Below are positions 35,932-43,672 of a DNA stretch of 64,000 nucleotides, piece after piece. Made by a program: the position numbers and the translations under genes. Under the pieces are notes generated by a model. It was given only the letters and a program-made list of their open reading frames with translations, was not told where the DNA came from and did not search any database. Positions within the stretch are counted from its first letter, which is position 1. The number at the start of each line of letters is the position of its first letter. The stretch spans positions 496,001-560,000 of the forward strand of contig NC_006048.2 of the NCBI RefSeq assembly GCF_000006445.2, read 5' to 3'. Origin of the DNA: Debaryomyces hansenii CBS767. Its lineage: Eukaryota > Ascomycota > Pichiomycetes > Serinales > Debaryomycetaceae.

Positions 35932-38862
35932 ATGACTTGGTCTCAGCTAGAGGTATGTGGATTTAAGAGAAAAGAGCAAGTTTTGACCTCCCAAAAACCT
36001 ATTTTTTTTTGGTTGGATGAGATGGTTTACAAGTGGGTTTTGATACTAACAATTTTTTAGCTAGAGAAAGCACATATTGCTTATGCTTGCATTGGTATAT
36101 TTTCTACCATTTTTTCATTAGTGTCTTTATTTGTTAAAGAGAGGTTATATATCGGAGAAGCAACGGTTGCTACCATCGCAGGTTTGATTTTGGGGCCGCA
36201 TTGTCTAGGGTGGTTTGAACCGGTAACTTGGGGAAACAGTGACTATATAACGCTAGAAATATGCCGAATAGTGTTGTGCATTCAAATTGTTGCGGTGGCA
36301 GTAGAATTACCACGAAAATATATGAAGAAGCATTGGTTATCGGTTGCAATATTTTTATTGCCTGTGATGACCTGTGGATGGCTTGTCGTTGGGTTGTTTA
36401 TTTGGGTATTAATACCGCATTTTAACTTCAGTTCGGCATTATTGGTTAGTGCATGTGTGACTGCTACTGATCCAGTGTTGGCAGCAGCTGTTGTTGGTAA
36501 GGGGAAATTTGCCGAGAGGGTTCCTGGTCATTTGAGAAATGTTTTATCGGCAGAATCAGGTTGTAATGATGGTATGGCATTTCCATTCATTTTCTTATCA
36601 TTGAACATCATCCTTCATCCTGGTAATGCTGGTGAAATTGTCAAAGATTGGTTTTTGCTCACCATTTTATGGGAATGCTTCTTCGGGGTTGCATTAGGTG
36701 TGATATTAGGTCTTCTCATGAGATATGCTGTAGCCTTCGCAGAAAAGAAAGGCTTAATTGATAGAGAGTCATTTTTGGCTGTCTTTGTCTTCTTGGCATT
36801 CAATTCGGCTGGTATTGGTTCGATGTTAGGTGTTGATGATTTATTGGTTTCATTTGCTGCCGGTACTGCGTTCGGCTGGAACGGTGATTTTGCAAAGAAA
36901 ACCGAGGAGTCGCATGTTTCAACTGTTATTGATTTGATATTGAATTTATCGTTCTTCGTTTATTTTGGTGCTATTGTACCTTGGCCTGAATTCAATAATG
37001 CTGCAATTGGTTTGAATGTTTGGAGATTAATTATTTTGGCATTAGTGATCATTTTCTTGAGACGTATGCCAGCAGTTCTTATATTGAAGCCTTTCACTCC
37101 TGATATCAAAAGTTGGAGAGAAGCATTATTCTGTGGACATTTTGGACCAATTGGTGTAGGTGCTATTTTTGCTGCAATCTTAGCTCGTAAGGATTTGGAG
37201 GCACATTTCACAAGCGAAGAAACACCTTTGGCACTTTTACCGGAGAATAATTTTCCACATTACCAATTACTCGCATGTATTTGGCCAATTGTTTGCTTCA
37301 TTGTCATTACTTCAATTATAGTTCATGGATCATCGGTGGCTGTTTTAACCTTAGGAAAGCGTCTTAATAGAATGGCTATCACTATGTCTTTTACTACTAC
37401 TAATACGCAAGATCAAGGTCCATCATGGATGTCACGTTTACAAAAATTGGATAAAGCATCAACTTCATTTTCTTTGCATAGAATTGATACCCAAGCACCA
37501 TCTACTGAAAAAGGTCATAAATTACAACAGTCTAACACTGTGGAAACTAGTGGTATTAAAGTCAGGCCAGCGGGTGGAGCAAAAAGGAGAAAGCATAAGA
37601 AGAAGAGAGACCCAAGATCAAGACTTAAGAAATCGTTATCAAGGGCTTCTGCGGATAGCGAGGCTGATGAGATAGTACCTTCTCAAAGACATAAACCCCA
37701 AGCCGAATTTTTGCAATTAGGCAGAACCCCCTCAACAGCGATCAGAACACCATCGGATGAAGAGTCAGAACCTGAATCAGCAGTTGGTATTGATAATTCA
37801 AAGGAAGATTTTGATGATAGCCCAGGCTCGTCGAATTCTATAGAAGTTGTCGCGAATGAAGATCAAGGTAGGATGGTTTTTGCTGTTCCTCCTTATGATT
37901 CACATGGGAGGGTTGAACAAGACGAAGACCAAGATAATGGTAAGGTTTCCTTTGCAAGAAACGCAATGGAGGGCCGTAAAAGTGTTCCATCAACTGCATT
38001 CCAAGAAGGTGAAAAGATTATTATTGAAGATCAAGCGGGTGAGATTATTGAAACTTTGCCTCTTAAATCTTTACAAGGTCAGCCTGAAAATGAAGATGAT
38101 TTAAGTATCCATTCAATGAATTCTCTAAGCCGTCAATTATCAAAATATTCTACAGCACAAAGTGACAGGACTTCTACAGAAACGTCGTTAAATACAAAAG
38201 AAAAGCCAAACTCGCCTCTAGGTAAATTGGCAAGATCATCATCCCTCAGTCTCGGGCGTAAAGGCAAGAGAAAGGGTTATTATAAGAAAAATGATCCTAA
38301 GCACCGTAAAGTATTTGCTCATCAAGTTGATAATTTTATAGTTATTGAGAATGCTGACGGTGATATTATCAGAAGATATAAGGTGAATCGTCATACCGCT
38401 AATAGGGCTAGATCTAATACTGGTAATTCGATGGTTGGCAAAGCATTAAATTTCGTCGGATTAAAGAAAAATAATCCAAAGAATAATGTAGATGCAAACG
38501 ATTTAGAGAAGAATGATATAGAAAATATTTTAATCCCTGAACATGATGATACAAATAATCCAAACCATCCATTAAAAAATCCAAAGTTTGAAAATGCAAT
38601 TGAATCTAAATTAACCAAAATTTTGTTAGACGACAGAAGTAAGAGCTCAAATTTTTTGAGTGTTGGTAATAAATCTGAAACTATACAAGAGGACTCTGAA
38701 AGGGGTGTTTCTGATGATGACTATGATACATCTAGTGGATCTGAAGAGACTGATGAGGATGAAGATCAAGTTTTGGAGGAAACTGACATTGAAAAGAAAA
38801 GAAGGTTGGCGGCCTTGGGTCAAATGCCAACTCATAGACGGAAAGAAGATGAGGAAGACTAA
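35932..38862 (+). CDS. NHA1: Plasma-membrane Na+/K+:H+ antiporter Nha1, spliced
   Basis: Exon 1 is 35932-35952 (21 nt, MTWSQLE) and exon 2 is 36061-38862. The 108-nt intron has GTATGT, a TACTAAC branch (36044-36050) and TTTTAG. The joined N-terminus [21 protein letters not shown] aligns residue for residue with yeast Nha1 (MAIWEQLEVSKAHVAYACVG). The protein has about 940 residues: 12-13 TM helices (to about residue 440) including [14 protein letters not shown] and [14 protein letters not shown] with the ion-binding ND/DP residues, then a long hydrophilic, acidic C-terminal tail. It exports Na+, K+ and Li+ in exchange for protons, and the tail is used for Hog1 and cell-cycle links. Confidence 0.95.
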
Positions 38863-39041: not shown

Positions 39042-40349
39042 TTAATGAGCGGCTTTTGGAGCATCGTTTAATTCCAGTAATGATTTTTCAATCGAATCAA
39101 CACCCTTTAATAAGTCAGCTTCAGATATAACTAAAGGTGGTGCCAATCTAATGATATGGTCGTGAGTCGGCTTAGCTAAAACACCATGGTCTTTCATCAA
39201 CAAGCAGAGATCCCAGGCAGTTCTACCGTTGGTTTTGGAGTCATCAATTACAATGGCACACAATAAACCTTTACCCCTAACTTCTGATATAACGCCGTTC
39301 GACTTAGCCTTTAATTCCTCTAATTTAGAACGTAATAACTCGCCTAATTTATTGGATCTGTCAACTAAGTTCTCGTCCTTGACGACTTGTAAAGCTGCAG
39401 TGGCCACTCTACATGCCAATGGGTTACCACCATAAGTGGAACCGTGCGAACCAGGCTCTAAGCACAACATGATCTTCTTGGAGGACAAGACCGCAGACAC
39501 TGGCATAACACCACCAGAGATTGCCTTACCTAACAAAATGACATCTGGTTTGACATTAGCAGAATGCTCATAGCATAACATTTTCCCGGTTCTAGCAACC
39601 CCGGTTTGGATTTCATCACAGATTAACAAGACATTGTGCTTCTTACATAAAGCTTGCACTTTTGTCAAATAACCTTCTGGTGGAACCACAATACCAGCCT
39701 CTCCTTGTATTGGTTCCAATAAAATTGCGGCAATCTTATCACCAGCATTGTTGAAGGCCTTTTCGACGTCTTCAATTTCCCCATATCTCAACAAGGTACC
39801 CTTTGGTTCGCCAGGAATTTGAGGGCCAACTCCTTGTAAATAAGGTCCAAACTTGGAGGTAGCTTCAGGATCGGTCGACATAGAAATAACCCCTAATGTT
39901 CTCCCATGGAAATTGTTGACGGCCGACAAGATAACAGCCTCGTCTTCAGGAATGCCCTTTTCAACGTAGCCCCATCTTCTGGCCAATTTCAACCCAGTTT
40001 CGACCGCTTCGGCCCCGGTGTTCATGGGCAAAACCATCTCGTAGTCGAAATACTCGGTGATGTACTTGGCAAACACCCCAAACACGTCAGACGAAAATGC
40101 TCTCGAACATAACGTCAATTTTGAAGCCTGGTCAACCAATGCTTCCACAATCTTAGGGTGACAGTGTCCTTGATTAACTGCCGAGTAAGCCGACAAAAAA
40201 TCGAGATATTCCTTCCCTTCTGGATCCCACACATGCGCACCCTTAGCCTTCGTGAATACTACTGGCAATGGGTGGTAATTGTGAGCTGAGTAATCAGTTT
40301 CGTACTTGACAGCAAGCTCTGATGATATGTTAAAGTTTGGACTTGTCAT
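39042..40349 (-). CDS. CAR2: Ornithine aminotransferase
   Basis: 435 residues, with the class-III aminotransferase signature. Blocks: [76 protein letters not shown] and the PLP-lysine [11 protein letters not shown] (Lys275). It converts ornithine to glutamate semialdehyde in arginine catabolism, in the cytosol in yeasts. No mitochondrial targeting peptide is seen. PRO3, the next enzyme on the route to proline, lies 10 kb away. Confidence 0.97.
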
Positions 40350-40752
40350 TTTTATCCTAGTTATTCTATTATTGACTAGGGGAGATTCTTTTTCAAACGT
40401 CCATGAAGTACCCAGTTTATATATATTTTGGATTTCTCGGCTTCAATTGCCCAATCAACCTGGGGCCCCTCCTATCGGTCTTTATTTCACTTTAGGGAAT
40501 CGTACCTATTTTTCGTGAGAAATGGTCTTGAATACACCCATTCAAAAGAGTATCCAACCGCGAAGGAATCATAAGGCTAGAGAATAGGCGGGTGTTTCCT
40601 AATTAGGAATAATTAGAAATAGAAGAAATGTGCGTGTATGTACCGCCAATATAGGCACCTTGAGAAGGATAGCCTAAGATGATCAACCTATATTGTTACT
40701 GAAGATAACTAATCACTATCGAATAGGTAGAGAAGAATTGAAATAAAAGAAA
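40350..40752. other. Divergent promoter CAR2 / RNR-regulator gene
   Basis: 403 bp without a gene. It holds a Swi4-type cell-cycle box (40510-40517) and a short GC-rich patch (40456-40474). Confidence 0.5.
40510..40517 (-). promoter_or_regulatory. SCB-type element CACGAAAA
   Basis: TTTTCGTG on the + strand reads CACGAAAA on the other, the Swi4 cell-cycle box consensus. It is about 236 bp before the start of the ribonucleotide-reductase regulator and about 160 bp before CAR2. Confidence 0.45.
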
Positions 40753-41337
40753 ATGGAGACAGCAGATTTTAAGAGAGCAGCAAACAAAGGTATCGAACCA
40801 CAACATGAGAACAGCGACATTGCTTCTTTATCGACGCTAGGGATGAGAATAAGGAAATCGGTCGCAGATGGTTATAACGTACCATCTAACAAGTATAATG
40901 GATATAATGCATATGACCGTATGGGATATACTAGTCATGGAGAATATGGGAGAGTTGAACCCAAGGCCATTGGAATATTCGGGGGTAACCAGGATGGAAG
41001 CAATATAGATTATGAACCGGCCAGAGTCCCATTACCTACCCATATGAGTCAACCACCGGCATTGACTAACGTTGGATCTACTATCGGAACATGTTCGAAT
41101 TTGTCTGAATGGGAAAACAATTATGCAAGCCATGCGCCGGCTATCAGCACATTGGGAGTCTTTGACCAGGGCGCAAAGGGAAAGAGAAAGTTCGACGACA
41201 TTGATGAGGATGCAGTTGCATACGGCAGCGGTGCTGGTGCTAGTCCTGGTGCGATCTCCACCAATACGACCTATGATATGGGTACAGAATATTACCGGGC
41301 AAAATATGGCGAGTTAAAGTTCGACGAAGACTTCTAA
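40753..41337 (+). CDS. Small ribonucleotide reductase regulator (HUG-domain, Dif1/Spd1/Sml1 type)
   Basis: 194 residues, mostly disordered. Residues 26-41 (LSTLGMRIRKSVADGY) match the HUG motif of the Dif1/Spd1 group, which controls ribonucleotide reductase by directing the small subunit to the nucleus or by inhibition. Two further short blocks are SEWENNYASHAPAI (about 118-131) and KRKFDDIDED (about 143-152). The last residues, LKFDEDF, resemble the C-terminal peptide by which R2 subunits dock on R1 (FTLDADF-type). It may act on R1 as well as R2. The motif match is short, but its position and context are convincing. Promoter with an SCB-type element. Confidence 0.65.
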   Translation: METADFKRAANKGIEPQHENSDIASLSTLGMRIRKSVADGYNVPSNKYNGYNAYDRMGYTSHGEYGRVEPKAIGIFGGNQDGSNIDYEPARVPLPTHMSQPPALTNVGSTIGTCSNLSEWENNYASHAPAISTLGVFDQGAKGKRKFDDIDEDAVAYGSGAGASPGAISTNTTYDMGTEYYRAKYGELKFDEDF

Positions 41338-41803: not shown

Positions 41804-43672
41804 ATGATGTTTAATAATATAGGGTATCATTTTTTACTACCCTTTAGAAATCTCACAGCTCAAGCAAGATTTCTACAAATAATAAGGCTTTTCACATGTA
41901 TTGCCGCATTAACATTTATCATCGCAACATTAATAGGCTCCCTTGCTAATAGGAATATATATATTGCAAGAATTAATTGTGCCCGTTTAGATGTTGCTCG
42001 TGGTTTATATAATAGTTTGAGGAGCTCCGTGTCTTTATCCTCAAGTATTCTTGGCGATTCAGAGGATAATGTGCTACCTGTTGATTCATCGTTAACTAAT
42101 TCCGAAATAGCAGTGCTAACCTCATATGCTGAAAATCAAGTTGCTGATGCTCCCCAATACATTGTTACCTCCTTATGGAGCTGGTGCTATGGTAATTATA
42201 ACATCACACAACACATGGACAGACATGGTGTTGTTCATATATCCAAGCATAACGATGTCCTTACTTGCTCAAAATCGACGAAGAGGTATATTTTTGATTA
42301 CAAGGATGAATTAGAATTGATAGGTTTACAGAGCATTTTAGCATACGCATACCAGTCTTCGGATTTGAATGATAAAAAATACGAAGAGACAATAGCCAAA
42401 AGAAATAATAAATACAAATTAGTTCCATCCGGCTTGATATTTGGAGCTAGTTCCCAGCTAGTTATATTAATATTCGGCTATATTTTATACAGTAATAGGG
42501 GCCCGGAGCAAAGCCTCAATAAAATTCCTGTTTTTGTGATGAATATTATAGCTTTAATATCTGTTGCATCATTTCTAAGTTTAGCTGTATCCAGTAGTCT
42601 TGTGACTAATTTATTGATCGAAATTAGAGGTGAAATTAAATCTAATTTGGGGGATTATGGAATTGCGTTACATTTTGGCGATATTTGGTTCCTGTTATTG
42701 TGGTTGTCTTTTACATTTTCATTACTTTCAAGTGTTTCTTGGACTTTCCCTCTATGGTGTGCCAATCCACGGGATTTTGATGAAGAGGAAGATTTTGATG
42801 ATTTCCCTTATGGATCTGATAATATAACTGACAACGAGGAAGCGGGAATGTCTGACTTGAGCGGCCTTAGACGTAATCCAAGTGTTTCAGATAAATATAA
42901 TAGATTCAACAAGACAAGCGCGAATATATCTAGTGGTGTTCAGTACAAAGCATCTGCGGATTTTGGTGCCAAAAATGATAATGATGTTGAAGAAAGAGAC
43001 TTTTCTGATGATGAGGACCATGAATACGAAACTGATTATGTCTATAATGATACGAGTAATAGAAAATACGATGCATATGGTGCTAGAAACGAAGACGAGT
43101 TACGAAAGCTTGGAGAAACATTGTCAAGAAAAATGTCCGTTCGCCGTCTAAACAGAAATCTTTCTAAGAAAAGCCGTAAGTCATACCTCCGTGATGCAAA
43201 TTACCCAATATTTGAAGATGAATCAAGTAACTTATTATATCACGACGTCAATATCAGTAACTCACAGTATCCAATGACCGATTCGATGGCTCACCATTAT
43301 AGAGAAGAGACCTTTGATGGCTACGTAAATAGTCACAAGCCAACTACAAGTGCCAGCACTATGTCTCTTGGAACGTCGAAAATCCTAACTAGTCATATTA
43401 ATAAAGTTAGAGAAGAGGGTAATAATACGCCTACTCGTAATGCATCAGATAAGTCTGTTGATAGAAGAAAGAATAATAAAGAACAAGATACAAATTTTAG
43501 GTCTAATTCACTACAAGAGAGACATTTCCAGCATAATACTAGGAACAATCCATTTTTACAGAGTGATACACTTGAATCATTAGAGAACAAAAGAAACTCT
43601 ACAGGTGATTCATTTTTGAATTTTGACGAAATGGAAATCCTAGACAACAACAATTATATAAATAGACTTTAA
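41804..43672 (+). CDS. Four-TM claudin-like membrane protein (Ecm7-like)
   Basis: 622 residues from the ATG at 41804 (an upstream in-frame stretch lacks ATG). TM1 (LFTCIAALTFIIATLIGSL, about 28-46) is followed by an extracytosolic loop of about 160 residues. The loop contains SLWSWCYGNYN and LTCSKSTKRYIFDYKDEL. Then come three helices (about 210-225, 243-265, 290-312) and a long disordered cytosolic tail rich in Ser, Asn and Asp. Such a W-x-W-C loop and topology fit the fungal PMP22/claudin group, of which Ecm7 (Ca2+ uptake during pheromone response) is one. The Ecm7 name is tentative. Confidence 0.55.
   Translation: MMFNNIGYHFLLPFRNLTAQARFLQIIRLFTCIAALTFIIATLIGSLANRNIYIARINCARLDVARGLYNSLRSSVSLSSSILGDSEDNVLPVDSSLTNSEIAVLTSYAENQVADAPQYIVTSLWSWCYGNYNITQHMDRHGVVHISKHNDVLTCSKSTKRYIFDYKDELELIGLQSILAYAYQSSDLNDKKYEETIAKRNNKYKLVPSGLIFGASSQLVILIFGYILYSNRGPEQSLNKIPVFVMNIIALISVASFLSLAVSSSLVTNLLIEIRGEIKSNLGDYGIALHFGDIWFLLLWLSFTFSLLSSVSWTFPLWCANPRDFDEEEDFDDFPYGSDNITDNEEAGMSDLSGLRRNPSVSDKYNRFNKTSANISSGVQYKASADFGAKNDNDVEERDFSDDEDHEYETDYVYNDTSNRKYDAYGARNEDELRKLGETLSRKMSVRRLNRNLSKKSRKSYLRDANYPIFEDESSNLLYHDVNISNSQYPMTDSMAHHYREETFDGYVNSHKPTTSASTMSLGTSKILTSHINKVREEGNNTPTRNASDKSVDRRKNNKEQDTNFRSNSLQERHFQHNTRNNPFLQSDTLESLENKRNSTGDSFLNFDEMEILDNNNYINRL

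Follow-up and report, generated by a model that had tools for sequence, protein, structure and literature searches.

A small ribonucleotide reductase regulator of Debaryomyces hansenii ends in a conserved module resembling the R2 tail

The window, a stretch of 64,000 nucleotides of Debaryomyces hansenii DNA, carries on its plus strand an open reading frame of 194 amino acids (40753..41337) for a ribonucleotide reductase (RNR) regulator of the Dif1/Aer122c type. The product matches PF08591 (RNR_inhib) with 40.8 bits, where the cut-off is 23, the best stretch being residues 25–46, where the HUG motif lies; this agrees with the original prediction, made from the DNA letters, of a small HUG-motif protein at this position. 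No other PF08591 gene was detected in the D. hansenii genome (12.18 Mb, 8 contigs). We take D. hansenii to be a CUG-Ser yeast, a code that leaves the translation of the regulator unchanged because its reading frame contains no CTG codon. An ornithine aminotransferase gene (39042-40349, minus strand; TIGR01885, 674.5 bits) adjoins the regulator, as CAR2 presumably adjoins DIF1 in Saccharomyces cerevisiae, and a SUR7/PalI-family gene (41804-43672) lies on the other flank. The window also contains, at 36322-38862, a gene for a Nha1-type Na+/H+ antiporter (PF00999 and PF08619), which fits the salt tolerance of this yeast. Upstream of the regulator, 143 bp from its ATG, we observed the near-palindrome TTTCCTAATTAGGAA (window 40595-40609), an exact 15-mer found at only three places in the D. 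hansenii genome. We take it to resemble an Mcm1/early-cell-cycle-box element, and its location upstream of an inhibitor gene hints at expression in M/G1.

Four conserved features follow one another along the protein. The HUG motif, SLSTLGMRIRKSVADGYNVPSN (residues 25–46; 40825..40890, plus strand), contains the Pfam match and is expected to bind R2. In the homologue alignment of this region, M31, R32, R34 and G40 are invariant and Y41 nearly so, and GMRIRKSVADGY agrees with the signature GMR(I/V)R(K/Q)(S/A)...GY described for HUG, the R2-binding element (PMC4245953). At the expected place after HUG sits the conserved block RVPLP...PP.L..GST...SNLSEW (residues 91–120; 41023..41112, plus strand), in which R91, P95, P101, P102, L104, S109 and W120 are invariant. 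This Sml-like region is expected to comprise a phosphodegron and the first half of the R1-binding region. As a second PF08591 stretch it is weak alone (E 8.77), and together with the neighbouring stretch it reaches 42.8 bits. A basic KRK patch comes next at residues 144–146 (41182..41190, plus strand), with K144 and R145 invariant in the alignment; nuclear import as its role would be a guess. The last feature, recognised both from column conservation and from the structural model, is a conserved C-terminal module, YRAKYGELKFDEDF (residues 181–194; 41293..41334, plus strand).

The AlphaFold2 model of the regulator is mostly disordered, with a mean pLDDT of 58 and a pTM of 0.18, and is unsuited to testing docking. 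It contains helices at residues 21–39, 116–126 (pLDDT about 60) and 178–185, the last of these a short helix in the C-terminal module after which the end of the chain is extended. Compared by description only, the order of HUG, Sml-like region and C-terminal module is the same as in Aer122c of Ashbya gossypii, whose architecture is given as Hug-Sml-R1B with R1B consisting of two subdomains (PMC5709847). S. cerevisiae Dif1, likewise compared by description only, has the same order of HUG and Sml-like region and presumably an ornithine aminotransferase neighbour too. Its R1B is described as inactive (PMC5709847), whereas the D. hansenii regulator keeps the terminal module. This module stands where the R1B domain is expected, toward the C terminus, and we infer that it represents the second half of R1B.

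The module closes with a heptapeptide, LKFDEDF-COOH (residues 188–194; 41314..41334, plus strand), that is marked out by its sequence, its conservation and its comparison with R2. The translation of the reading frame ends in YYRAKYGELKFDEDF, and positions 41311-41337 read E-L-K-F-D-E-D-F-stop, bearing out the earlier claim that LKFDEDF is exactly C-terminal; the stop codon, TAA at 41335..41337 (plus strand), places the carboxylate of the terminal F194. The claim that this end shares a pattern with R2 tails stands as well. The organism's own Rnr2, which is 100% identical to DEHA2G04268p of strain CBS767, ends NSFSFDEDF, so that FSFDEDF in R2 faces LKFDEDF in the regulator and the last five residues, FDEDF, are identical. 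In our alignments the R2 endings on which the comparison had been based, FTFNEDF and FTLDADF, close the solved chains 1jk0_A (GAFTFNEDF) and 1h0n_A (NSFTLDADF), which we take to be the S. cerevisiae and mouse R2 proteins, respectively. The likeness to the R2 tail and to the peptide P7 (Ac-FTLDADF) consists of hydrophobic residues at positions 1 and 3, an aspartate or asparagine at 4, an acidic residue at 6 and a phenylalanine with its free carboxylate at 7.

A short acidic end could in principle arise anywhere, and the raw count of the pattern F-[DN]-[DE]-[DE]-F-stop in the 12.18-Mb genome is no evidence, because the three places at which it occurs (the regulator, RNR2 and a 146-aa ORF; none in the version with TGA) are to be set against two matches in a backwards control. 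The 146-aa ORF (L006 1501-1941, minus strand) ends NYFDDEF, with no hydrophobic residue at -7; by eye it is phosphorelay/Hpt-like, and its FDDEF end is probably a coincidence. These numbers, together with the FDDEF end of an unrelated ORF, are what one might cite for a chance likeness between two acidic C termini. The idea is scarcely credible and we reject it, since the tail is conserved across yeasts in homologues retrieved with a query that lacked it.

A first search with the regulator had returned 40 homologues. So that the tail itself could not bias the selection, we cut the 14 C-terminal residues from 13 sequences (the regulator, P0001, and 12 of the 40), aligned them and searched with the result, which gave 467 matches at E ≤ 10. 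The best 120 of the 467 comprise the 40 earlier homologues and 80 new ones, the latter including named members of Scheffersomyces, Candida, Spathaspora, Kuraishia, Pichia, Ogataea, Wickerhamomyces and Cyberlindnera; regulators of Saccharomycetaceae or filamentous fungi are absent from these 120 under those names. With P0001 added, the terminal residue is F in 103 of 121 proteins, and 81 of the 121 fit [LFM]x[FL][DNH]E[DE]F. Six proteins that by eye appear to be gene-model or assembly errors (P0029, P0171, P0179, P0191, P0194 and P0211) are kept in these counts; in P0194 an R2-like tail, and in P0191 an acidic-W end, is followed by extra residues. A non-redundant set at 70% identity, with the last 14 residues disregarded in the calculation, holds 84 proteins, among them P0191 and P0194, the other four having dropped out as redundant. 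It divides into 56 strict tails, 12 loose ones, 9 that end in W, 6 with some other F end and 1 that ends in V. The original prediction was to be given up if the terminal residues were unconserved among orthologues; the tail, strict or loose, is kept in 68 of the 84 non-redundant proteins.

Within these 68 tails, F at -1 (68/68), E at -3 (63), F at -5 (67) and L at -7 (66) are nearly fixed at positions that were partly given by the selection. Outside the selection, G occupies -9 in 67 tails, Y occupies -10 in 47, and Y or F occupies -14 in 59, and no position from -20 to -40 of the same 68 regulators exceeds 0.82 bits. The tails follow the consensus [YF]xxx[YNH]GxLxF[ND]E[DE]F-COOH. As read from the alignment, the regulator closes with some 14 constrained residues that follow a drifting linker. 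The likeness to R2 is above chance on sequence grounds, one of the few genomic matches being the end of an RNR regulator and that end being kept across yeasts.

The tails of R2 proteins follow F-x-F-[DN]-[DE]-[DE]-F in all of the best 120 of 7995 matches. The fixed positions coincide in the two families, and -6 is variable in both. At -7 the families part, with L in 66 of 68 regulators as against F in 120 of 120 R2s (best 120 of 7995). On a matrix built from 104 unique yeast R2 12-mers, with the last seven positions used, LKFDEDF scores 16.1, compared with 11.2 for FTLDADF, 22.1 for FTFNEDF and 28.3 for the tail of the organism's own R2. No more than 3 of the 1260 possible arrangements of its letters, itself included, score as high or higher. 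A single non-terminal heptapeptide out of 63,628 in the fetched proteins reaches its score, and it is this very tail, lying inside P0194. Lower scores were obtained for other regulator tails (25 proteins scored), among them LKFNEEF at 8.1 and the W-ended ECVDNDW at -11.2. In 13 same-species pairs of regulator and R2, the number of identical residues among the last five is 5 in D. hansenii and 2–4 in the other 12, and letter-by-letter co-variation with R2 was not found in these pairs except for a D at -3 in both proteins of C. boidinii, a pair drawn from two different strain records. The regulator is a protein distinct from R2, and gene fusion with RNR2, or recent copying from it, was considered and rejected: the likeness is confined to the last seven residues, the preceding YG-x-L module is absent from R2s (best 120 of 7995), and the letters differ systematically, with L for F at -7 and mostly N for D at -4.

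Among the deviant tails are ...LSFNEEV in Suhomyces tanzawaensis, ...LKFDDYSF in P0015 and P0025, and ...LRTDEEF in P0168. S. cerevisiae Sml1 ends in E-M-D-F, which fits the last four positions of the R2 tail without the L-x-F part, and to our knowledge S. cerevisiae Dif1 has no acidic-F end. In the W-ended sub-group (9 of 84), acidic residues and a W follow soon after a KR motif, as in KRRFECVDNDW, and replace the YGxLxFxExF module. Its named members are Wickerhamomyces mucosus and Cyberlindnera fabianii; W. anomalus is likewise W-ended and was dropped as redundant. P0039 and W. pijperi P0181, also of the KR-ended type, end in F. The sub-group possibly reflects a lineage-specific change of the R1-binding end.

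In W. anomalus and C. fabianii, R2 is still F-ended, with a regulator that ends in acidic residues and W; this would suit a C-terminal region that binds R1 outside the R2 groove, by way of a helix or of the swinging C-terminal tail of R1, the resemblance to R2 being secondary. Zhang et al. in 2007 reportedly found that Sml1 competes with the R1 C-terminal domain, which would point the same way, and work by Chabes et al. from 1999 is said to bear, perhaps, on competition with R2. Action of Sml1 at the R1 C-terminal domain need not conflict with docking in the groove, however, because the groove is on the body of R1. Sml1 is an inhibitor that binds R1, as the D. hansenii regulator probably does, and, unlike the latter, is described as having no HUG motif (PMC4245953); the four mutations that abolish its binding to Rnr1 all fall in a helix of its C-terminal region, residues 61–80, outside the extreme tail (PMC6275026), and a helix is predicted in our regulator at 116–126. 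We would look for the counterpart of the Sml1 helix in the Sml-like region of the regulator and not in its tail. Binding away from the groove leaves unexplained why an F-[ND]-E-[DE]-F-COOH register is kept at the very end of 68 of 84 proteins (strict or loose), and we consider it distinctly unlikely.

The socket into which such a tail would fit can be traced in the organism's own R1. We detected one R2 gene and two R1 genes, L004 and L005, in the genome (RNR subunit genes L001, L004 and L005 on G000 C7), and a second, Rnr4-like R2 gene was not detected there. The mammalian tail peptide P7 was crystallised in yeast Rnr1 and inhibits yeast RNR at 31 uM (PMC3483043). Its F1 and L3 are seated in subsite 1, formed by V342, E343, Q386, W389, L393, M721, G722, T725 and F729, with F1 stacking on W389, and its D6 and F7, with the carboxylate, are seated in subsite 2, formed by S691, Q692, K693, I696, K723, S726, M727 and Y730 (PMC3483043). 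All 17 of these contact residues are identical to yeast Rnr1 in L004, as are 14 of 17 in L005, a diverged second R1 with the groove changes E343K, M721F and M727S. Judged by residue identity, the R2-peptide groove is therefore intact in the R1 encoded by L004. The match between the kept tail positions and the R2-tail contact positions speaks against a tail that serves some other partner, such as a C-degron, a chaperone or an import factor, as does the R1 binding known in the family (PMC4245953). Acidic-aromatic C termini can act as signals of that sort, as a matter of general knowledge, but we hold this explanation to be very improbable.

Taken with the conserved module, the intact groove makes it probable, in our judgement, that the regulator is an RNR inhibitor of the ancestral Hug-Sml-R1B type whose tail enters the R1 groove, where it competes with the tail of Rnr2, a competition that the original prediction had raised as a possibility. 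The tail would most likely belong to the region with which the family binds R1, and occupy the R2 socket; because it carries the chemistry of the R2 tail, competition for that socket is the simplest reading. In this mechanism LKFDEDF-COOH, within its 14-residue module, would act as a mimic of the R2 tail, with L188 and F190 entering the hydrophobic subsite 1 and D193 and F194, with the free carboxylate, entering the basic subsite 2. The tail would compete with that of Rnr2 on R1 while the HUG motif holds Rnr2, and checkpoint-driven phosphorylation of the Sml region, together with its degradation, would lift the inhibition. Against mimicry we count the L at -7 of the regulators, where subsite 1 stacks an F on W389 (PMC3483043), as well as the helix position of the Sml1 binding mutations, the W-ended sub-group, the other deviant ends and the loose letter match to R2 across the 13 pairs. 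R2 bound through HUG would raise the local concentration, which could offset the weaker binding of a peptide that bears L.

With a motif for R2 binding and an R2-like tail joined in one protein, a clamp is conceivable as well, in which the tail lies in the R1 groove and HUG on R2, giving a tethered, mis-arranged complex of R1, R2 and inhibitor, or a store that is released upon degradation. Spd1 of Schizosaccharomyces pombe offers a precedent as a single protein that is described as binding both R1 and R2 and as combining HUG with a stretch that resembles the last half of the domain through which Sml1 binds R1 (PMC4245953), and a published title has Spd1 and Spd2 modulating RNR architecture. 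The tail chemistry would be the same for bridging as for competition, and the evidence here does not separate the two; import of R2, the role of Dif1, would part R1 from R2. We regard the clamp as rather unlikely and prefer competition for the groove.

The family, with its two targets and its R1-binding region, is already known, R1 binding by that region being in print for Sml1 and Spd1 (family R1 binding: PMC4245953). Our literature search, whose scope did not extend to the original Sml1, Spd1 and Dif1 papers, returned no statement that the end of any of these three proteins mimics the R2 tail, and for that reason of scope we cannot claim priority; the end of the regulator as an R2-tail mimic may be new. 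A search of solved structures with the regulator gave only chorismate synthase (E 0.2), which is irrelevant, and neither this search nor a text search of the literature yielded a solved structure in which R1 is bound by an inhibitor of this kind.

If the end of the regulator does imitate the R2 tail, the P7 competition assay already in use, together with the groove residues already mapped, offers a direct test of the mechanism. The tail would then be a natural counterpart of the ligands aimed at this site of R1, namely P7 and TAS1553 (PMC9184620), and the regulator would illustrate how an ancestor with two hands came apart into Dif1, Sml1 and Hug1. More tentatively, the yeast Hug-Sml-R1B family as a whole might well operate by subunit mimicry, with HUG holding R2 and the R1B end replacing R2 on R1 in one disordered protein, and with the separate Dif1, Sml1 and Hug1 of baker's yeast as degenerate parts of that design.
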